Shown: one piece after another, positions 9,840 through 36,827 of the stretch
How positions within the stretch are numbered: position 1 is the first letter of the stretch
Layout of the letters: each line of letters starts with the position of its first letter
Source of the DNA: a virus
Virus record (IMG/VR): IMGVR_UViG_3300031673_007059
Span: 1-37,956 of that record
DNA: 37,956 bases
Strand: one strand, 5' to 3'
Program-made: the position numbers and the translations under genes
Notes under the pieces: generated by a model
What the model was told of the DNA's origin: nothing
What the model saw: the letters and a program-made list of their open reading frames with translations, nothing else
Database searches by the model: none

Positions 9840-10232
9840 ATGAGAGCAAAATTTATATGTGAAAAATTTACGCAAGATGGAGACCCGATAAAACAAATGG
9901 GTATTGGAGATAAAGGCCACATTATTAAACAAACACTTGAAAAATTAGCAAGTAAAAACGGATTTAAATTCAATCTTCGTTCAGACTTCGTAGATGAAGA
10001 AGAAATTGAAGAATATGGATATAAAGATGTTAAAATTATAAATAGTTGGTATAAAGAAGGAGAAAAAGATTTTATAGAAATAACATTATATTCATTTAAA
10101 GAAAAAGAAACCGGGGAAATAAAATATGGCATATTCAAATGTTATGAAGATGCTGTAGATATGGGAAATGAAATAGTATGGCCAGATAGTGTTGAATTTA
10201 CTACTGATTATTGGGAAAAAGAAATTTATTAA
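9840..10232 (+). CDS. Small tagged protein (EKF-DGDPI-MGIG leader, 130 aa)
   Basis: The N-terminus MRAKFICEKFTQDGDPIKQM followed by GIG is the shared tag: I-C-E before K-F, then DGDPIxxMGIG. The body (residues 25-130) is charged, with predicted strands and no known domain. The stop overlaps the start of the next tagged gene (TAATG), so the two are translationally coupled and probably came from a duplication of the leader. If a T4-type prohead protease cuts after Glu8, only the first eight residues would be lost. A packaged internal protein is one possibility. Confidence 0.65.
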   Translation: MRAKFICEKFTQDGDPIKQMGIGDKGHIIKQTLEKLASKNGFKFNLRSDFVDEEEIEEYGYKDVKIINSWYKEGEKDFIEITLYSFKEKETGEIKYGIFKCYEDAVDMGNEIVWPDSVEFTTDYWEKEIY

Positions 10233-10552: not shown

Positions 10553-10630
10553 ATGGTGGATAAAGCTAATCATAGAAGATGGCACGGTAATAATTGTAAA
10601 ATAATAAAGAAAAACAATGGAAATATTTAA
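10553..10630 (+). pseudogene. Remnant C-terminus of an HNH-type homing endonuclease
   Basis: A 25-codon frame reads MVDKANHRRWHGNNCKIIKK and a few more residues. The HRRWHGNNCK core closely resembles the C-terminal finger of the intact HNH gene at 29433 (YYHWHGDKCK). It lies in an otherwise empty gap before the gp6-like gene and overlaps its start by 14 bases. This looks like the scar of a lost homing endonuclease. Confidence 0.45.
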
Positions 10631-12512
10631 CGTTTCACGCATCAGATTTTCAGAACTTTATCAAGATGCCTTAAATTTTGTCAAAAATACTTATGGTGAT
10701 TTAGGACAACACTTTACATTAGCATCTCCAATGGGGCAGTTACTTCAAATATTATTGCACTATGGACGTATGATTTTATTTTATAATGAAGACTCAGTTA
10801 CAGAATTAAATATTAATACTGCAACGCGTTCTCAAAATATAAAGGGATTAGCAAGTTTAACAGGGCACAATCCTTCGAGACCAATGTCTGCAAGAGGAAC
10901 ATTAACATTTCAATATAATGGAACTAAGTTACCACCAGGAACAAAAATAATAACAATTCCTAATTATACATTAATATCAAATAGTCAAAACGGATTAACA
11001 TATACTATAATTCTTCCAGGTGAAGAAGCATTATTTGATTTAACAGATATAACAGATAGCATTGATGTTAATATAGTTCAAGGAAAAATGGAGTATCAAC
11101 AAGCAACCGGAACCGGCGATCCATTACAATCATTTAATTTTCAAAATAAAAAAGGCTCGGCTATAGATCAATATTATATTAATGTTTTTGTAAATGGAGT
11201 TAAATGGGAAGTTGTTAATTCTATTTTAGATATGACTCTTAATCAACAGGCAGTTATGGTTAAAACTGGTCAAACCGGCGGAATTGATGTATTTTTTGGA
11301 AATGGCTATAATGGTGAAGCGCCACCTATGGGCTCAACAATTTTAGTAGAATATTTAATTACTGATGGTGCGGCGGGAAATTTAAATGCAATGAATACTA
11401 GCATAAAAAATACATGGGAATTTTCAACATCAGGATATTTGCTTAATGGAGAAGAAATAGATCTTAATAAATATCTTAATGTAACAATTAAAAATGAAAT
11501 AATGTTCGGCGCTCAAGAAGAACCTCTTTATCTAACTAGACTTTTAGCACCACGTGTATCAAGAAGTTTTGTTCTTGCAAATGAAAATAATTACATTTAT
11601 TTTCTTAAAAAATTAAACATATTTACTCTTATTGATGCAATTCCCGGATTTGCGACATTTGAAGATCAATATGTTCTTGACAAATATAATCAGGCAAAAT
11701 CAATACATGAAGATGTTCTTATTGAGTATAGAAATTTAATTGCAACTTATGGAGTTGATTCTTTACATGCAATTAATAAAAAAGAAGAATTAGACAATGC
11801 TGAACAACAATTATATTATTATACAAAAAAACTTGAAGAACAAAAGAAAGATGATAATACAGTTTATTTATTTTTAGTTCCTGATGTTACAAAGCGTATT
11901 TCAACAAATGATAATTATTATACATGCCCTATTAATTCATTTATTTTATCTGATAGTGAAAAACTTTCAATTTTAGATTTAATCGAACAAAGCGGTCAAA
12001 GGATATTAACAGTTGATAACGCTATTTTAGATTTACAATTTCCAAAATTTTCATTGAACATGTCATTAATATTATGGGAAGGAACTGTTTATGACACAGT
12101 TAGACAGGATATAATATCACAAACTTCAGAATATTTTTTAACAAATACAAGAAGAGATAGAATACCTGCATCAGATTTAATTAAAGTTATTGAAGATATT
12201 AATGGAGTAGACTCTGTAAATGTTTGGTTTGACGCAGATAAAAATAATCTAGATATTTATAAAACACATTATGGTCTAGATGATTATGGTGATATTATTT
12301 TAGAGAGATACGTTAAAGATGCATTTGGAAATAATGTGCCCGTGAAAGATATTTATCCTTTAATACGCGGAGACTTTGAAAACGCACAAGGAACTTATTA
12401 TGAAGATAATTTAGTAAAAAATAAATTATCATCATTAAATATTCAAGTAAGAGGAATAACCAGAAAAGGCCTAAATTCTGAAAATAATTTAGCAATATTA
12501 AATAACTTATAG
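10617..12512 (+). CDS. Baseplate wedge protein, T4 gp6-like (631 aa)
   Basis: Length (631; T4 gp6 is about 660) and content fit gp6: an N-terminal helical part (FSELYQDALNFVKNTYGDLG, MGQLLQILLHYGRMILFYNE), a beta-rich middle starting near ARGTLTFQYNGTKLPPGTKI, and a C-terminal domain with baseplate J-like features (TNTRRDRIPASDLIKVIEDI, NGVDSVNVWF). gp6 forms the continuous inner ring of the baseplate wedges. The neighbouring gp25-like gene supports the call. The stop codon overlaps the GTG start of the tagged ankyrin gene. Confidence 0.85.
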   Translation: MEIFNVSRIRFSELYQDALNFVKNTYGDLGQHFTLASPMGQLLQILLHYGRMILFYNEDSVTELNINTATRSQNIKGLASLTGHNPSRPMSARGTLTFQYNGTKLPPGTKIITIPNYTLISNSQNGLTYTIILPGEEALFDLTDITDSIDVNIVQGKMEYQQATGTGDPLQSFNFQNKKGSAIDQYYINVFVNGVKWEVVNSILDMTLNQQAVMVKTGQTGGIDVFFGNGYNGEAPPMGSTILVEYLITDGAAGNLNAMNTSIKNTWEFSTSGYLLNGEEIDLNKYLNVTIKNEIMFGAQEEPLYLTRLLAPRVSRSFVLANENNYIYFLKKLNIFTLIDAIPGFATFEDQYVLDKYNQAKSIHEDVLIEYRNLIATYGVDSLHAINKKEELDNAEQQLYYYTKKLEEQKKDDNTVYLFLVPDVTKRISTNDNYYTCPINSFILSDSEKLSILDLIEQSGQRILTVDNAILDLQFPKFSLNMSLILWEGTVYDTVRQDIISQTSEYFLTNTRRDRIPASDLIKVIEDINGVDSVNVWFDADKNNLDIYKTHYGLDDYGDIILERYVKDAFGNNVPVKDIYPLIRGDFENAQGTYYEDNLVKNKLSSLNIQVRGITRKGLNSENNLAILNNL

Positions 12513-12919
12513 TGAAATTAGTTAGAGAACATATAATATTTGAAAAGTTTGTCACAGATTCAGATCCTATAACTGATATGGGTATAGGTATGATGCAACA
12601 GATAAAGGAATGGATGAAATCTATACATATAGAATTTACAGATAAAGATCGAGCTTTATTTATTTGTTCTGCCTACGGAAAAACTAAGTTTGTTAAGTAT
12701 TTATTAGATGCAGGAGCAGATGTTCATACATTAAATGATAATGCTTTACACTGGGCGTGTTATGAAGGATATATTGAAATAGTTAAGATCTTAATAGATG
12801 CTGGTGCAGATGTTCATGCAGTTAATGATGATGCTTTACGATGTGCAAGTGATAATGGACATACTGATGTAGTTAAGCTTCTTGAATATCATATTGCTAA
12901 CGAAAAAAATAAAAATTAA
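12512..12919 (+). CDS. Tagged ankyrin-repeat protein (135 aa)
   Basis: A GTG start at 12512 overlaps the gp6 stop and gives leader MKLVREHIIFEKFVTDSDPI then TDMGIG. Residues about 47-125 are ankyrin repeats (KTKFVKYLLDAGADVH, ALHWACYEGYIEIVKILIDA, ALRCASDNGHTDVVKLL). The protein closely resembles the first unit of the polyprotein-like gene at 17452, including the MxxIKEWxKSI linker after the tag, so the two are paralogues. Ankyrin repeats bind proteins and are frequent in effectors. The combination suggests a virion-packaged host-interacting protein; this is inference. Confidence 0.8.
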   Translation: MKLVREHIIFEKFVTDSDPITDMGIGMMQQIKEWMKSIHIEFTDKDRALFICSAYGKTKFVKYLLDAGADVHTLNDNALHWACYEGYIEIVKILIDAGADVHAVNDDALRCASDNGHTDVVKLLEYHIANEKNKN

Positions 12920-17451: not shown

Positions 17452-19452
17452 TTAATAATATAAATTTTCTCTTCTCCATTGTTCATCTTCTTCTCTTTCT
17501 CTTTCTTCTCTTTCTCTTTTCTCCTGTGCATACATATATCTTTCATATTCTTCTTGCGCGATTTCAGAATCACATCGTGCGCACAAAACAAAACGAACTT
17601 TATCACTAGATGCACCATAATAGTTAAATCCTCTTTTTGCTAATTCAAGTTCGTTTTCTTCGGATAATTCATTATGATCTTCATCTAATAAAGAACCACA
17701 ATTACCACAAACATAAACTATTTTAGGAAGACCAATGTTCATGTCAGATATAGGATCTGAATCTTCTGTAAATTTTTCATTTATAGATTCTTTAATATAT
17801 TTTAAAAATAAACGCCTATGTTTGTTGCTTATCATATAATCAAAGTTACGTTCATAATCTTCTTTTTTGATATTATCTGCAATTCCGTTTTCTAATAGTG
17901 CTTTAAGACATTTATCGTGTTTATGAAGTGCTTTATGTAATATTGCGTATATGTTTTTTTGTATTTTTTCATTGAGGTTGGGTTTTATTTCATAAAGAAG
18001 TTTTATTAAATCATCTCTATCTTGATCTATACAAGTATATATAATATGTTCATATACGTTATAAAAAATATTTTTCTCTCTATTTTCTTTTTTAATGCCG
18101 AGTTCTTGCAAAATACCATTTACACCGCCAATTCCCATATCACGTATAGGATCTGAGTTTTGTATAAACTTTTCGGATATATTTTGTTCTTGAATTTCAT
18201 TGAAAATACCGTGTCTTTTTACTATAGCCTTATAAACATCAACATAATCAGGTTGAAATAATTTATAATTATTCAAAATTCTATCAATTTCAAACTCTCC
18301 GCGAATTGTTCTACGTTTAGCGTTATAATCTTGAAAATCATCTAATGTAGCTTTATCCATTCCGGATTCATCAGAGGCATATCTCATAATTGTATTATCT
18401 AAAATAGCTAAAATCTCCCATGGTTTATGATCTTCTTCAAGCATCCAATTGATAATTTTTTTCCATTCTTTTTCAGAATATAATTCTGCCTCAAATGAAT
18501 AAAATTTTTTTGACACTTGAAATATTTTATTAATAATACCTATTCCCATATCTTCAATAGGATCTGAATCTTCTGTAAATTTTTCAGATAAAATATTTTT
18601 TGCATTTCCTATTTCTTCTTTTGCAGATATTCGCACGCCTTTTTTTAAATTTTGAGCTAATTCAAGCGAACCTACTAAATTTCTGGGATTGAGTTTTTCT
18701 CCATTAATTGTTACATATTTATTTACATAATCTTTAAGAGCATCATAGTAATATGTTTTCATACTTCCTTGAGTATACGTATCATTAGCCATAACAAACA
18801 CTTTTGGAATTTCATCTTTCTTTAATATATAAGCTAAATTTCTATTTAAAAATTCATAGAATTCTTCTTTATTATTAAAATTATTTGGGCCAAATATACC
18901 TATTCCAAGATCTTTTATAGGATCAGAATCTTGAACAAACTTTTCATTAAGGCTTTCTTTAACAACTTTGTTCTTTTTTTCTTTAGCGATATGATCTTTA
19001 AGGATCTTGACTACATCAACGTGTCCATAGTAACTTGCTAATTGTAAAGCCCAATCACCATCTGCATGCACATCTGCTCCAGCATCTAATAAGAGCTTGA
19101 CTATTTCAGTGTGTCCATTTTCACTTGCAAGGTGTAAAGCATAATCACCATCTGCATGCACATCTGCTCCAGCATCTAATAAGAGCTTGACTATTTCAGT
19201 GTGTCCATTTTCACTTGCAAATCGTAAAGCCCTATCACCATCTTCATGCACATCTACTCCAGCATCTAATAGATACTTAACAAATTCAGTTTTTCCGTGT
19301 CTAGCACAAATACATAAAAGATCTTCTTCTATAAATTCTCGACCAATAGATTTTATCCATTCTTTTATTTTATTTATCATGCCAATGCCCATATCAGCTA
19401 TAGGATCTGAATCTTGAACAAACTTTTCATATAAAGATTCTCTAACTCTCAT
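17452..19452 (-). CDS. Polyprotein-like protein with five (L/I)xE-KF-DSDPI-MGIG tags
   Basis: The tag occurs five times. Glu of the E-K-F core is at residues 11, 172, 292, 429 and 561 (numbered from an ATG six bases upstream; the second ATG at 19452 gives the usual MRVRE start). Each Glu has Leu or Ile two residues before it (LYE, LNE, LSE, ISE, INE), and each is followed by xxDSDPIxD(M/L)GIG or a close variant. Between tags lie different units: ankyrin repeats (about 48-155), two unknown 95-115-residue domains, a helical possibly ankyrin-like unit (445-555), and a Cys4 zinc ribbon (CGNC at 584, CARC at 626) with a charged C-terminal coil. Cleavage after each Glu would give five small proteins of about 107-161 residues. 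Tandem fusion without cleavage is the alternative. Confidence 0.8.
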   Translation of the reverse strand: MRVRESLYEKFVQDSDPIADMGIGMINKIKEWIKSIGREFIEEDLLCICARHGKTEFVKYLLDAGVDVHEDGDRALRFASENGHTEIVKLLLDAGADVHADGDYALHLASENGHTEIVKLLLDAGADVHADGDWALQLASYYGHVDVVKILKDHIAKEKKNKVVKESLNEKFVQDSDPIKDLGIGIFGPNNFNNKEEFYEFLNRNLAYILKKDEIPKVFVMANDTYTQGSMKTYYYDALKDYVNKYVTINGEKLNPRNLVGSLELAQNLKKGVRISAKEEIGNAKNILSEKFTEDSDPIEDMGIGIINKIFQVSKKFYSFEAELYSEKEWKKIINWMLEEDHKPWEILAILDNTIMRYASDESGMDKATLDDFQDYNAKRRTIRGEFEIDRILNNYKLFQPDYVDVYKAIVKRHGIFNEIQEQNISEKFIQNSDPIRDMGIGGVNGILQELGIKKENREKNIFYNVYEHIIYTCIDQDRDDLIKLLYEIKPNLNEKIQKNIYAILHKALHKHDKCLKALLENGIADNIKKEDYERNFDYMISNKHRRLFLKYIKESINEKFTEDSDPISDMNIGLPKIVYVCGNCGSLLDEDHNELSEENELELAKRGFNYYGASSDKVRFVLCARCDSEIAQEEYERYMYAQEKREREEREREEDEQWRRENLYY
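19054..19233. repeat. 90-bp near-exact repeat coding for ankyrin units
   Basis: Two adjacent 90-bp copies, nearly identical in DNA, encode 30-residue ankyrin units (ASENGHTEIVKLLLDAGADV). A typical ankyrin unit has 33 residues, so these are short. A third copy is more diverged. Recent local duplication is the simplest explanation. Confidence 0.8.
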
Positions 19453-19466
19453 GAACATCTTATTTG

Positions 19467-25141: not shown

Positions 25142-25204
25142 AGTGATGGAGAAAGGATTCGAACCTCTCCGAACTGCGCGCATTGTTCACCAATTTCCAT
25201 CATA
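25142..25204 (-). tRNA. tRNA-like element, no normal D-arm or anticodon arm
   Basis: A 6-bp acceptor GATGGA/TCCATC and T-arm AGAGG-TTCGAAT-CCTTT are clear, but only about 25 bases lie between the acceptor 5' strand and the T-arm, forming at best a TGAAC/GTTCG stem with a ten-base loop (AATGCGCGCA). Probably degenerate or a non-decoding tRNA mimic. Confidence 0.4.
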
Positions 25205-25234
25205 AACTGAGAAAATTACCTTGAGTATTTTTAG

Positions 25235-25316
25235 CGTGCTGCCATTACACTAATCCCCTATGTAACTTGGAAGGGGACTGAGGATTCGAACCTCAACTAC
25301 TCGCATGGAAGGCGAA
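25235..25316 (-). tRNA. Circularly permuted tRNA-Gly(TCC)
   Basis: On the minus strand the 3' part comes first (25316-25268): anticodon arm TTCGC-CTTCCAT-GCGAG, T-arm TGAGG-TTCGAAT-CCTCA, acceptor GTCCCCT and encoded TCCA. An 8-nt linker AGTTACAT follows, then the 5' part (25259-25235): acceptor AGGGGAT, TA, D-arm GTGT-AATGGCA-GCAC and G26. The two acceptor strands pair at all seven positions (one wobble). Joined after base 26, they give a complete cloverleaf. No other matching 5' or 3' half lies on the outer sides. The layout equals that of permuted tRNA genes known from some red and green algae. Confidence 0.65.
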
Positions 25317-25336
25317 GTAACTCGCTGGTTTACTAC
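25313..25336 (-). repeat. 24-nt hairpin repeat, copy 1
   Basis: On the plus strand this reads CGAAGTAACT-N7-TTACTAC, with AGTAA/TTACT able to form a stem. Copies of identical length lie at 27298-27321 and 29083-29106. This copy abuts the permuted tRNA. Confidence 0.6.
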
Positions 25337-25342
25337 AGTTTG

Positions 25343-25425: not shown

Positions 25426-25506
25426 TTGTTAGATTGAGATTCGAACTCTTATTTCTCCCCTTTTAAGCTGCAGCGCCGGAGTGTTCTACCGTTGAACTAT
25501 CTAACA
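25426..25506 (-). tRNA. tRNA with expanded anticodon arm, isotype unclear
   Basis: Acceptor TGTTAGA/TCTAACA and D-arm GTTC-AACGGTA-GAAC are perfect. The anticodon stem CTCC/GGAG encloses 19 bases, as if ten extra bases (GGCGCTGCAG) were inserted before a loop CTTAAAA. The T-stem is weak (3 bp). Its first 27 bases recur at 26749-26775. Confidence 0.6.
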
Positions 25507-27099: not shown

Positions 27100-27248
27100 C
27101 GGGGATTGAGGGATTCGAACCCACGACCAATAGATTAGTGAATGAAGAGAGTTCTGAACTCTTTAACTTCATAAGACTTCATTCAGATTTTTTTAATAGA
27201 ATCACCTATTATACAGTCTACTGCTCTGGCCAACTGAGCTAAATCCCC
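27100..27248 (-). tRNA. tRNA-Asn(GTT) interrupted by a 75-nt intron-like insertion
   Basis: The outer parts form a normal tRNA: acceptor GGGGATT/AATCCCC, D-arm GCTC...GAGC, anticodon stem GTAGA/TCTAT, and T-arm GTGGG-TTCGAAT-CCCTC (one mismatch). Removing 27138-27212 joins CTGT and TAA into loop CTGTTAA, anticodon GTT. The insertion is too short for a group I intron and contains its own stems GAATGAAG/CTTCATTC, AGAGTT-CAG-AACTCT and AATAG/CTATT. Tyr(GTA) is possible with a different junction, but bacterial tRNA-Tyr is class II. Confidence 0.8.
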
Positions 27249-27297
27249 AGAATCTAAGAAACTTGAGAAAAGATATTGTTATGCCCAAAAGTGTACA

Positions 27298-27321
27298 CGA
27301 AGTAACTTTTCTACTTACTAC
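27298..27321 (-). repeat. 24-nt hairpin repeat, copy 2
   Basis: CGAAGTAACT-N7-TTACTAC on the plus strand, lying between tRNA-Asp(GTC) and the intron-containing tRNA-Asn. Confidence 0.6.
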
Positions 27322-27326
27322 AGATT

Positions 27327-28996: not shown

Positions 28997-29020
28997 ATTA
29001 AAGTAGAGAAAAAGCGGAAG

Positions 29021-29097
29021 AGATAACAGGCGGATTTGAACCGCATCTATTGTTTAGAAGACAATCTCTGAACCATTCAGAACGAAGTAACTCTATC
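29021..29097 (-). tRNA. Atypical tRNA-Arg(TCT), irregular acceptor region
   Basis: Anticodon arm ATTGT-CTTCTAA-ACAAT, D-arm CTGA-ATGGT-TCAG and T-arm TGCGG-TTCAAAT-CCGCC are clear. The 5' acceptor strand is ambiguous (GATAGAG against TGTTATC pairs poorly), and about ten bases separate it from the D-arm. The 24-nt hairpin repeat overlaps this 5' region. Confidence 0.6.
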
Positions 29098-29106
29098 CAT
29101 TACTAC
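29083..29106 (-). repeat. 24-nt hairpin repeat, copy 3
   Basis: CGAAGTAACT-N7-TTACTAC on the plus strand, overlapping the 5' region of the atypical tRNA-Arg. Confidence 0.6.
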
Positions 29107-29113
29107 TACTTAG

Positions 29114-34215: not shown

Positions 34216-34626
34216 TTAGTTATTTTCTTTATAAATATCAAAATATTTATCCCAAAGTTTTATAGGTGCTGAAAGTAAAGTAAATATCCAGCCTTCTTCA
34301 AGAAAACTATTATCTCCTATTCTATTTTGTATTCTTAATGCATATCTAATATCCCCAATTATAATTAGTTTAAGAGATATAATATCTGCATCATAGTTAC
34401 TGCTGACTATTATTGAATTATTTAATCTTGAAGTTATAATATGAGTTTGATATGTTCCGCCAGAGTCAAAGAATCTTGAATCTTCTAAAGATATATCTCT
34501 TTTAGTTTTACTTATTAAAATATCTCCCTTTTTCACTCTTCTCCATTTTGAACCTATACCCATATCAACTATAGGATCTGAATCTTCAGAAAACTTTTCA
34601 CTTATATTTTCTCTTACAATTTTCAT
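34216..34626 (-). CDS. Tagged protein (NISEKF-DSDPI-MGIG leader, 136 aa)
   Basis: The ATG at 34626 gives MKIVRENISEKFSEDSDPIV then DMGIG, the full tag with I-S-E before K-F; an upstream ATG at 34650 would fall within the promoter-like TATATA sequence. The body has a beta-rich SH3-like stretch (WRRVKKGDILISKTKRDISL, TYQTHIITSRLNNSIIVSSN) and ends with a helical tail. No family is recognised. Confidence 0.65.
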   Translation of the reverse strand: MKIVRENISEKFSEDSDPIVDMGIGSKWRRVKKGDILISKTKRDISLEDSRFFDSGGTYQTHIITSRLNNSIIVSSNYDADIISLKLIIIGDIRYALRIQNRIGDNSFLEEGWIFTLLSAPIKLWDKYFDIYKENN

Positions 34627-34647: not shown

Positions 34648-34682
34648 CAAAGAGACCAGACGCTATGCGACCAGTCTCTTTG
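34648..34682 (-). terminator. Terminal hairpin of the candidate ncRNA
   Basis: CAAAGAGAC/GTCTCTTTG with an inner CGC-ATA-GCG forms a long stem; ACATTTAAATAT follows on the minus strand. It could end the RNA or protect its 3' end. There is no strong U-tract. Confidence 0.5.
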
Positions 34683-35150
34683 ATGTTATGCCGAGAAATA
34701 ACAGAAAGTGCGTTTTTATGAGTTTTCTCTCATTGTTTTCGCTCAGTCTTCGGGGACCTGAGTTTTAAGAAAACTTTAGTAAAAGAACTCTTTCGAATTC
34801 AATAACCATCTCATATAGTTATCAGTGTGTTATGTTTCCATAACAGTGTTTTTGCGAAGTATCACTTTCTTTACTACGGGATGTTAAAAATACAACTGAG
34901 AAAAATCATTTTTGCGTATGTTTAGGAGTTTCTATTCTCCGGAGATTTAAGGCTGTCTTCCACTATGCCTTGTAGGTATATGCTTATTTCTTTTGTTCGT
35001 CATATCAGGCGTCCTACACTCAGTTTTATTGGCCGAAGCCGCAAACCCTTGCCGTTTTTGCTTATCTATAGTTATCATTGTTTTTAGATCATCCGATCCT
35101 GGCCCTTACGGGATTCGAAGTACCGCAAAAAATCGCTACAGTTTTAAAAT
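34648..35150 (-). ncRNA. Candidate large structured non-coding RNA
   Basis: No credible gene lies in this 0.5-kb gap, which is richer in G+C than its flanks. Read on the minus strand it contains many hairpins, several capped by stable tetraloops: CCC-GTAA-GGG (35103), GGC-TTCG-GCC (35031), TGTTATG-GAAA-CATAACA (34828), GAATTC-GAAA-GAGTTC (34785). It also holds CTCAG-G-TC/GACTGAG (34742), AGTTTT-CTT-AAAACT (34761), GTTAT/ATAAC (34685) and a final 9-bp CAAAGAGAC/GTCTCTTTG stem (34648-34682). A TATATAAAT box lies at 35161. GNRA loops on the minus strand fix the transcribed strand. It may belong with large ornate phage RNAs such as GOLLD or ROOL; this is inference. Confidence 0.55.
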
Positions 35151-35160
35151 TCAAAGAACT

Positions 35161-35169
35161 ATTTATATA
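35161..35169 (-). promoter_or_regulatory. TATATAAAT box before the candidate ncRNA
   Basis: TATATAAAT contains the T4 late-type TATAAAT core and lies just upstream of the structured region and downstream of the macro-domain gene stop. Confidence 0.4.
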
Positions 35170-35229
35170 TTATATATTGTTTAAAAAACTATTAGTTTTT
35201 TAACTTAGTGCATTTAACTTATCTTTAAT

Positions 35230-35673
35230 TTATTTTTTGAAATGAACAATAGTTACGTCTTCGTCTTTAAGTTCTTCTTCGATGATTTTGCTTATTCTAT
35301 TCCAATCTCCACCGCCTAATCCTGCGCCAATGAGTGGTAATCCTATGCGCATTCCGGAATATTTTTTCTTTATTCTTTGCATACACCCACGAACTGCCGA
35401 ATAATCAATATCAGGTACATCAGAACCATATTTATATTGAGTATATAAATTTAAAACAATTAATTCTCCATAATCAACATAAGAAAAATCTCCAAGTTTA
35501 TTTTTATCTCCTTTTCGCGTGCAGTTATCTACCATGACAATTTCAGGATATGCATTTTTCATTGATAGAGCTATTCCTTTACCCATTGTACAAAAACAAT
35601 TACATCCATGTCCAATTACATCGAAAACGCCTTTGTTGGCTAATTTAATTAAATCACCTTCAATTTCTTTCAT
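35230..35673 (-). CDS. Macro-domain protein, ADP-ribose-1''-phosphate phosphatase-like (147 aa)
   Basis: The protein is a single macro domain: N-terminal EGDLIKLA, the adenosine/ribose loop IGHGCNCFCTMGKGIALSMK (21-40), and the phosphate loop IGLPLIGAGLGGGDW (108-122). Phage macro domains (for example T4 Tk.4) and yeast Poa1 convert ADP-ribose-1''-phosphate, the by-product of 2'-phosphate removal during tRNA splicing or repair, and related proteins remove ADP-ribose from targets. Its start overlaps the stop of the nicotinate phosphoribosyltransferase gene, linking it to NAD metabolism. Either ADP-ribose recycling or defence against NAD-based immunity would fit. Confidence 0.85.
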   Translation of the reverse strand: MKEIEGDLIKLANKGVFDVIGHGCNCFCTMGKGIALSMKNAYPEIVMVDNCTRKGDKNKLGDFSYVDYGELIVLNLYTQYKYGSDVPDIDYSAVRGCMQRIKKKYSGMRIGLPLIGAGLGGGDWNRISKIIEEELKDEDVTIVHFKK

Positions 35674-36827
35674 AGTTTAAGTATTTTTTTACAAAGTTCA
35701 ATTTCGTTTGGGTCACCTGTGTGCTTTCCCTTGCTGTCAGAGAGTTTAATAATAGGATTCCATACATCATTAATTAAAACATCTGAGAGTTTAATCACGA
35801 TATTCAAGGGTGTAACTCCTACATCATTGGTAAGGTGAGTTCCTATTCCGAATGATGACTTTATTTTGCCAGCACAATATTCTTTTATGTTCCATGCTTT
35901 AAATATATCAAGAGAATCTGAGAACACAATTGTTTTAGACATTGGGTCAATTCCAAGTTTTTTATAGTGAGCAACTATTTTATCTGTAAATTCATAAGGA
36001 TTTCCACTATCCTGACGAACTCCATCAAAAAGCTTTGCAAGTTTCATGTCAAATGTACGAAGAAAAACATCAGTTGTAAATGTATCTGAAAGTGCAATAC
36101 CAAGATCACCTCTATAAACATCTGCCCAGTTTTCAAGTGCAAGATAATTAGCCATTTTATATCCATAGAGAGCAGCATGAGCCATTATCCATTCATGAGC
36201 CATTGTTCCTATTGCTTTTAATCCGTATTTATGAGCTAAATGAACATTTGAAGTTCCTACAAAACAATGATTGCCGTTTTGTTTGAAGACATTAACTAAT
36301 GTATCTTGAACATTATATGAGAATCTTCGTCTTGTTCCAAAATCAGAAAAATAAGCATTATGATTCATCATTTCATTGAGCTTAAGCAAATCTCTTTCGA
36401 TATTTATTTTAGGGGTTTGACACGTTTCTTCGTAATAAAGTTCTGAAATTAATGCAAGAAGCGGCGCTTCCCAGAGAATTACATGATACCAATATCCTTC
36501 AATTTCGATTTTAAGATGATTTTCTTCATCCATAGAAACTTTTATTTCATTTGGGTTAAAATTATAACCTTTAAGAAAATCAATATAAGATTGTGGAAAA
36601 TATTTTATTGATTGTAAAAACTTTTCTTCTTGATCATATAAGGTTAACCATTTCATGTTATTTATTCCAGCTTGAATTTTATAATGAAAATTATCTGGAT
36701 ATGTCAAGTTATTTCTGTCAATAAAAGTATATTTAACTTTTACATTAGGAAATTTATTCAAAACGGCAAGCTGCATTGAAAACTTATACAAATCATCATC
36801 TAATAAACTTTTAATTATAGATCCCAT
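35670..36827 (-). CDS. pncB: Nicotinate phosphoribosyltransferase, PncB-like (385 aa)
   Basis: The enzyme forms nicotinate mononucleotide from nicotinate and PRPP with ATP, the first step of the Preiss-Handler NAD salvage route. Conserved PncB strings appear in order: LLDDDLYKFSMQLAVL, FNPNEIKVS, YWYHVILWEAPLLALISELY, FGTRRRFSYNVQ, FVGTSNVHLA, IGTMAHEWIMAHA, FDGVRQDSGNPYEF, LGIDPMSKTIVFSDSLD, SFGIGTHLT and KLSDSKGKHTGDP. Length is close to E. coli PncB (400). It is PncB and not NAMPT by these strings. The gene overlaps the macro-domain gene (ATGA) and lies two bases after the 160-residue gene. Raising NAD during infection or after NAD-depleting defence is a likely benefit. Confidence 0.93.
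   Translation of the reverse strand: MGSIIKSLLDDDLYKFSMQLAVLNKFPNVKVKYTFIDRNNLTYPDNFHYKIQAGINNMKWLTLYDQEEKFLQSIKYFPQSYIDFLKGYNFNPNEIKVSMDEENHLKIEIEGYWYHVILWEAPLLALISELYYEETCQTPKINIERDLLKLNEMMNHNAYFSDFGTRRRFSYNVQDTLVNVFKQNGNHCFVGTSNVHLAHKYGLKAIGTMAHEWIMAHAALYGYKMANYLALENWADVYRGDLGIALSDTFTTDVFLRTFDMKLAKLFDGVRQDSGNPYEFTDKIVAHYKKLGIDPMSKTIVFSDSLDIFKAWNIKEYCAGKIKSSFGIGTHLTNDVGVTPLNIVIKLSDVLINDVWNPIIKLSDSKGKHTGDPNEIELCKKILKL

Follow-up and report, generated by a model that had tools for sequence, protein, structure and literature searches.

A large structured RNA of Lak-like megaphages is probably a giant, duplicated Y RNA for a phage Ro60

The minus strand of a phage DNA segment at 34648-35150 encodes a structured RNA of about 500 nt that is both real and conserved. 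It is probably a giant, duplicated Y RNA of a Lak-like megaphage that scaffolds the phage Ro60 protein in an expanded Ro60-Y RNA system, Y RNAs being small RNAs carried by Ro60, a ring-shaped protein. The segment lies in the window, by which we mean the whole stretch of 37,956 bases that was analyzed (IMG/VR virus record IMGVR_UViG_3300031673_007059, positions 1 to 37,956). What we observe is a conserved locus, a covarying structure, a stem shared with smaller elements, tRNA cargos on that stem, and co-occurrence with a Ro60 gene. The Y RNA reading follows because the small elements show the anatomy of a Y RNA and the 500-nt RNA uses the same stem twice. From these observations we infer transcription of the RNA, the binding of Ro60, the tethering function and the biological role that are discussed below.

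The baseplate protein of the window (10617-12512) is 41% identical to its counterpart in Prevotella Lak megaphages and 61-100% identical to counterparts in 56 IMG/VR contigs, and the window is therefore a piece of a Lak-like megaphage. The RNA occupies a gap between two minus-strand genes (34651-35229) with no plausible ORF, the longest being 63 aa. Its G+C content of about 0.35, compared with 0.21-0.34 around it, makes it richer than most of its surroundings, so that 34648-35150 is the ORF-poor, G+C-rich segment described in an earlier note on this DNA. One flank is formed by a macro-domain gene (35230-35673, minus strand; Pfam PF01661), which comes after a nicotinate phosphoribosyltransferase (NAPRT) gene on the same strand. 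On the other flank is a minus-strand gene with a probable start near 34626, whose protein starts MKIVRENISEKFSEDSDPIVDMGIG. A large tRNA array lies 5-15 kb downstream of the RNA, also on the minus strand.

The earlier note had seen hairpins in the segment, four of them with GNRA or UUCG caps when read on the minus strand, and we located these caps as GUAA, UUCG, GAAA and GAAA. When stable GNRA- and UUCG-capped hairpins were counted, the minus strand of the region had three, compared with 0.09 in dinucleotide shuffles (0 of 1000 reached three). The same scan found none on the plus strand of the region, and only six on the minus strand of the whole window. Folding energy over the whole region gave z = −2.66 for the minus strand compared with −1.61 for the plus strand. 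For the two modules of the RNA taken separately (see below), z was −3.75 for module 2, and 0.05 for module 1, which is no more stable than its shuffles. Folding energy alone is weaker evidence than the count of capped hairpins. Rfam 15 identified only tRNAs in the window, and no credible match to the region even at E = 10. The covariance models of GOLLD and of ROOL did not match the region at the gathering threshold or at E up to 10, and searches at relaxed thresholds returned chance families only.

Homologs of the RNA were found in other phages. Using the window sequence as query, nhmmer run without filters matched a 132.8-kb Lak-like phage (L183) with E = 8.6e-12 over 4.8 Mb, and nhmmer matched L196 with E = 5.8e-15. 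Conserved blocks of the window/L183 pair were used as DNA patterns on viral contigs, leading to L196, L203 and L207, and later to the short forms L210, L211, L212 and L213. Profiles in nhmmer match L203, L207, L160 and the four short forms, L160 having been found by profile. L203 is a 405-kb record; L206 is identical to it in sequence and is not counted apart. The RNA family thus comprises the window and nine distinct Lak-like megaphages. Only chance matches were obtained by blastn against phage records with the window RNA and the L183 homolog as queries, and a search by exact long motif gave none. Pattern matches in genome contigs look like chance, and the RNA was absent from the loci of the macro and NAPRT proteins that were searched. 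Two early blast matches (L069 and L070) were rejected as homologs, being chance matches inside coding genes.

The order of the locus is conserved, with Ro60 or NAD genes, the RNA, a gene for a tagged protein, a gene of 66-74 aa and the tRNA array. L203 has the same order as the window, i.e. NAPRT and its neighbors, the RNA, the tagged gene, a 66-aa gene and the tRNA array. L160 resembles the window in having the macro gene immediately ahead of the RNA, and a 66-aa gene and the tRNA array come after the RNA. In L196 the gene directly upstream is NadR-like, as named from its sequence. NAD metabolism genes cluster directly upstream of the RNA in several phages (L264 5738-6952, 8733-9383 and 9540-10475; L196 7632-8657; window 35230-36827), the members being NAPRT, a nicotinamidase-like isochorismatase, NAD synthase, NadR-like and macro-domain proteins. 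The tag is a short N-terminal motif, EKFxEDSDPIxDMGIG in the window lineage and NFERGxDPKxAMGIG in relatives, that is common to many otherwise unrelated phage proteins (window 34216-34626, 9840-10232, 12512-12919 and 17452-19458; L183 7666-10931; L196 2595-5910), some of which have multiple copies further inside. The motif has the look of a tag for sorting or cleaving proteins across the whole phage, an idea akin to the capsid targeting sequence of T4.

Alignment of the family reveals that the long form of the RNA is a tandem of two related modules. The short forms, of about 250-300 nt, have the first module only, with their own terminator of a hairpin plus a U run. The frame of a module is P1 - UAGUAA - spacer - P2 - (A/U)UACUUCG - cargo - P2' - spacer - UUUCU - P1'. 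In 38 elements P1 forms 4.74 of 5 pairs compared with 3.55 ± 0.10 when partners are swapped, and the best P2 helix has 5.97 bp compared with 4.59 ± 0.19, part of these differences being due to selection since the UUUCU site was picked requiring at least three P1 pairs and the P2 partner was the best nearby match. The P2 test applied the same choice of partner to the swapped pairs, and at most positions of P1 there are three or more pair types. Helix H4 of the cargo was anchored by its conserved loop, so that pairing played no part in its selection, and it forms 5.0 of 5 pairs compared with 3.26 ± 0.42 on swapping (0 of 5000 swaps). H1 and H5 covary likewise; for H1, with its GNRA or UUCG cap, a minimum of 3 bp was required. 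Covariation between phages extends over P1, P2 and the hairpins of the cargo, including those with GNRA and UUCG caps. The earlier note had proposed an alignment of homologs for compensatory changes as one of the tests that might refute it, and such changes are present in all these helices. Its claim of a large structured phage RNA, on the minus strand and near a tRNA array, is thus borne out by covarying homologs, by hairpins specific to that strand and by the position of the array.

All the parts of the locus are on the minus strand. A conserved upstream region (35161-35212), with the same order ahead of the homologs in L203, L210, L211 and L213, includes TGCACTAAGTT (35202-35212), an A/T hairpin (35183-35201) and an A/T box TATATAATATATAAAT (35161-35176) that is promoter-like, and which is the box the earlier note had placed just upstream. 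It is followed by the boxA-like antitermination sequence GTTCTTTGAATT (35148-35159), which we take to match the boxA consensus, and homologs have GTTCTTT at the same place. Given the promoter-like box, the boxA-like GTTCTTTGAA that stands ahead of the RNA, and the terminators of the homologs, the RNA is probably transcribed.

Module 1 (34894-35145, 252 nt; from the 10-phage alignment and nhmmer) is a Ro-type stem with an ornate cargo. The 5' strand of P1, AAAACTG (35139-35145), pairs with CAGTT (34894-34898), and it is one of the P1 helices in the covariation test above. Motif A (35116-35138) comprises TAGCGA, the P2 5' strand TTTTTGCG (35124-35131) and TACTTCG (35116-35122). The 3' strand of P2, CGCAAAAA (34909-34916), pairs with 35124-35131, and motif B (TTTCT) then leads into CAGTT (34894-34903 together). 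Within the cargo, H1 (35103-35112) is the GNRA hairpin CCC-GUAA-GGG, whose stems differ and covary in homologs while the tetraloop is kept. H2 (35087-35098) is GAUC-GGAU-GAUC, with GNRA-capped counterparts in L203, L210, L212 and L213, and H3 (35031-35040) is the UUCG hairpin GGC-UUCG-GCC. H4 (34978-35005), the helix of the partner-swap test, has the conserved loop GACGAA...UAA, and H5 (34925-34940) is GGAG-AAUAGAAA-CUCC. Module 2 (34688-34883, 196 nt) is a second Ro-type stem and cargo, where P1 is CCG/CGG and P2 is formed by AGAAAGTG (34863-34870) with CACTTTCT (34703-34710). Its hairpins are GUUAUG-GAAA-CAUAAC (34829-34844), with a GCAA-capped counterpart in L203, GAAUUC-GAAA-GAGUUC (34785-34800), and H5, AUGAG-AGAAAA-CUCAU (34718-34733), which is AUAAG/CUUAU in homologs. 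At the 3' end is a terminator-like hairpin (34648-34682) with no U run in the window; the earlier note had correctly noticed a terminal hairpin, but it has 13 bp rather than 9. The homologous RNAs of L183, L203, L207, L210, L211 and L213 end in a hairpin and a U run.

The same stem is found on other cargos. A free descriptor search for it was unselective, giving 20 real matches compared with 17 in shuffles, and was therefore replaced by a search for the conserved motif. Motif A, as TAGTAAN{2,14}TACTTCG, has 37 matches in 11 Lak-like records, on a single strand within each record. In the window, L160/G028, L183/G036, L196/G076, L203/G074 and L211/G079 the tRNA genes lie on that same strand. In 29 other large-phage records, chosen for carrying NAPRT or macro genes, there are four scattered matches, one per record, and the gut phages Lak-A2 and Lak-B5 and two other huge phages have no stem, with motif A at chance level. 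Most stem elements sit between tRNA genes. On the minus strand of the window the stem frames a complete circularly permuted tRNA-Gly(UCC) (25204-25341), a tRNA-Arg(UCU)-like body with D, anticodon and T arms and no normal acceptor stem (29001-29111), and a short loop as sole cargo (27251-27326). The 500-nt RNA itself has no tRNA-like domain; this is present in the sister elements at 29001-29111 and 25204-25341.

The permuted order is anticodon arm - T arm - acceptor 3' half with CCA - linker - acceptor 5' half - D arm. ARAGORN detected nothing in the permuted elements of the window, L196 and L162 in their encoded order. When the parts were rejoined by script, the window element became a perfect tRNA-Gly(UCC), and those of L196 and L162 became tRNA-Gly(UCC) and tRNA-Pro(UGG) respectively; two of the seven permuted-tRNA candidates were undetected even after rejoining. 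In having the 3' part first, with a linker at the acceptor end leading to the 5' part, they are like the permuted tRNA genes of algae and archaea and like two-piece tmRNA, but the phage elements differ in being framed by a Ro-type stem. Bacterial hosts are not known to have a tRNA-splicing endonuclease for permuted tRNA genes. The conserved bases of the stem fit none of a hammerhead, tmRNA, integron attC or group I or II intron, and these identities were rejected. A pseudoknot between AGUA and UACU was abandoned too, since UACUUCG never varies, whereas its partner varies with no compensating change.

Chen and colleagues reportedly described, in 2014, probable Y RNAs close to Ro60 genes in many bacteria and some phages. 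In the 405-kb phage (L203) the strand of the RNA also carries, about 7 kb upstream of it, the gene of a TROVE protein of 567 aa whose C-terminal part is VWA-like (DTSGSM). The Ro60 gene of L211 is likewise on the RNA strand, some 2 kb upstream. The L203 protein has a Pfam TROVE match, and phmmer against the PDB matches solved TROVE proteins with E = 5e-14. An AlphaFold model of the phage Ro60 is of low confidence (pLDDT 56); its twelve best Foldseek matches are to Ro60/Rsr only, among them the Ro60 of Thermus phage phiLo and the Rsr of D. radiodurans. A search of 35 records with PF05731 found the gene in 9 of 12 that bear the stem compared with 1 of 23 that do not (Fisher p = 2.8e-5; with two duplicate phages taken out, p = 2.0e-4; both values are indicative only because the records are related). 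Three stem-bearing records lack the gene, all of them fragments: the window (38 kb) and two records of 60 kb and 16 kb. The 16-kb record was counted as stem-bearing through its module 1 (L212), which the strict pattern misses. That the window lacks a Ro60 gene is presumably due to its being only a piece of a genome. Genes for PNPase and RtcB were sought in the stem-bearing phages and neither was found, so that a partner would be that of the host. In a 548-kb phage record (G065) there is a strong TROVE match (228711-229748) and no stem motif; this phage may use a different Y RNA.

In Y RNAs the 5' and 3' ends pair into a bulged stem that is bound by Ro60, with a variable loop, and bacterial YrlA has a tRNA-like domain, with D, T and acceptor arms, to which PNPase binds, and tethers Rsr to this enzyme (PMC4726728, PMC8394870). 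In the phage elements the ends are likewise paired into a long bulged stem, with P1 and P2 covarying in 38 elements and with a bulged U and U.U mismatch that were read by eye from the sequence. Ro60/Rsr is encoded in the same genome in all stem-bearing records except the three fragments. The stem turns up again around tRNA-like and permuted-tRNA cargos, and the phages concerned encode Ro60, so that the parsimonious reading of the large RNA is an outsized Y RNA. It shares with YrlA (RF02553) and its Rsr the paired ends in a bulged stem, a variable apical domain and a Ro60 gene in the same phages, along with a tRNA-like domain in sister elements of the same phage array. Yet bacterial Y RNAs are of 90-150 nt whereas the phage RNA has about 500 nt in two tandem modules, its domain is ornate with GNRA and UUCG loops rather than tRNA-like, and complete permuted tRNAs, possessing an anticodon arm and CCA, are among the sister cargos.

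The Y RNAs of bacteria are a divergent group (PMC4726728). None of the stem elements scored above the cut-off with the Rfam models YrlA RF02553 and Y_RNA RF00019, whose best matches fall on ordinary tRNAs, far below 69 bits. Because these models do not score the elements, assignment as Y RNA rests on architecture, tRNA-like cargos and co-occurrence. By eye the vertebrate Ro60 site (7-bp helix, bulged C and 3-nt bulge) seems only loosely matched, with a U bulge and U.U mismatch instead. The Rfam models, the size, the apparently loose fit to the vertebrate site, the window without Ro60 and G065 without the stem stand against the Y RNA reading, as do the lack of a phage PNPase or RtcB, the absence of excess stability in module 1 and the low pLDDT of 56.

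If the RNA is a giant Y RNA, transcription would start at the A/T promoter, and boxA would let RNA polymerase read through the structured RNA. Both modules would open and close with a Ro60-type stem, consisting of P1, the bulged U, an AGUAA/UUUCU internal helix with the U.U mismatch, P2, and UACUUCG at the top, and an ornate hairpin-rich domain would replace the small loop or tRNA-like domain. The stems would bind rings of phage Ro60, with two sites per molecule, and the ornate domains might act as a tether or gate for an effector or substrate, the part that Y RNA plays for PNPase in the RYPER complex (Rsr-Y RNA-PNPase) of Deinococcus radiodurans. The proposed mode is similar to that of RYPER in having the Y RNA between Ro60 and effector; it differs in that no phage PNPase was found. 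The NAD genes, macro domain, tRNA array and tRNA-like and permuted-tRNA Y RNAs suggest that the role might be in protecting, repairing or degrading RNA when host defenses cut tRNA. A survey of jumbo phages counted TROVE proteins, which a small subset of them has, as RNA-repair functions, and treated phage provision of NAD+ and tRNA as counter-defense (PMC7824862), and a Vibrio jumbo phage has a Ro60-like protein (PMC7765460). These reports would fit a role of a phage Ro60-Y RNA in RNA protection, repair or decay. We give an even chance to the broader proposal that in a clade of Lak-like megaphages one Ro-binding stem has come to carry many cargos (empty loops, tRNAs without acceptor, whole tRNAs in circularly permuted order and duplicated ornate domains of 200-280 nt), that single RNAs load two Ro60 rings, and that the tRNA array doubles as an array of Y RNAs.

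The RNA might instead be an ornate RNA in the style of GOLLD and ROOL, phage RNAs that are found near tRNA islands and form RNA-only nanocages, with tRNAs in some GOLLD linkers (PMC12286853). The stem would then be a closing helix only, and the ornate domains could assemble through RNA-RNA contacts into homo-oligomers or cages near the tRNA array, for which the size, the location and the many GNRA and UUCG loops suited to tertiary contacts would be appropriate. We consider this unlikely. The Rfam search of the region for GOLLD, ROOL and other large RNA models, which the earlier note had advised, found no credible match, and no ornate family explains why the same Ro-type stem is common to elements of about 80 nt and to tRNA cargos. 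The modular duplication and the co-occurring Ro60 gene are further differences from GOLLD and ROOL. The comparison that the earlier note drew with GOLLD and ROOL thus stands as an analogy of style and fails as family membership. Its suggestion of a new class is right in that the RNA belongs to no Rfam family, but this is not simply an isolated new class, being two copies of a recurring stem-framed module. Overall the observation is confirmed and its interpretation partly supported.

A slightly less probable alternative still is that the stem clamps or processes tRNAs of the array and is unrelated to Ro60. It would staple or mature permuted tRNAs and other RNAs, driven by protein or ribozyme, and the large RNA would be a protected by-product or the cargo of a mobile element. 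Most elements do lie between tRNA genes, the stem-framed permuted tRNAs rejoin to perfect tRNAs, and GIY-YIG genes are inserted into or beside motif A (L212, L207, L213 and L203). However, most ornate and short-loop elements have no tRNA exon to process, the co-occurrence with Ro60 would be coincidence, and permuted tRNA-like domains on a Ro60 stem have the appearance of YrlA. Least of all do we favor a 5' leader or attenuator that acts in cis on the tagged gene or the tRNA array further downstream, in place of a free RNA; this seems very improbable. The end hairpin is about 22 nt upstream of the probable ATG of the next gene and lacks a U run in the window, as a leader might, yet six homologs have the hairpin and U run, and the next gene varies among homologs between tagged gene, nuclease, 66-aa gene and GIY-YIG.

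These RNAs bear on the question of what Ro60-Y RNA particles do in bacteria and in animals. Phage Ro60 genes have been noticed before, without known RNA partners of about 500 nt in size, and it would be unexpected, if true, for a bacterial virus to have complete permuted tRNAs on a Ro60 stem. A clade of phages with up to seven or more stem elements per genome, whose cargos are duplicated and interchangeable, is a natural experiment on the role of the cargo. Reading the large RNA as a Y RNA would give the large ornate RNAs that phages have near tRNA arrays a link to a protein partner, and provide a way to ask what phages do with Ro60.

Several minor observations were made in these and other phages. 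Phage G028 has a second, unrelated large cargo of about 276 nt on the same Ro-type stem (L161 17530-17815, minus strand), with a boxA-like sequence ahead of it and no match in Rfam. In the same phage, which is of the same megaphage lineage, there is an Rfam match to permuted tmRNA (L070 2884-3037, minus strand). A tRNA of the window, probably Tyr (GUA) (27100-27248, minus strand), has an insert of about 75 nt in its anticodon loop, too small for a group I intron, and a nearby tRNA (25426-25506) has an enlarged anticodon loop. In an unrelated phage a HEARO RNA and a cluster of GNRA and UUCG hairpins (L108 1285-1548 and 328-640) lie near a NAPRT gene. GIY-YIG endonuclease genes or fragments are found inside or beside motif A at L212 700-1370, L207 980-1210, L213/L262 and L203 6353-6928. 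L212 has motif A in duplicate, one copy on either side of the GIY-YIG ORF, and the Y RNA stem therefore looks like a homing site.
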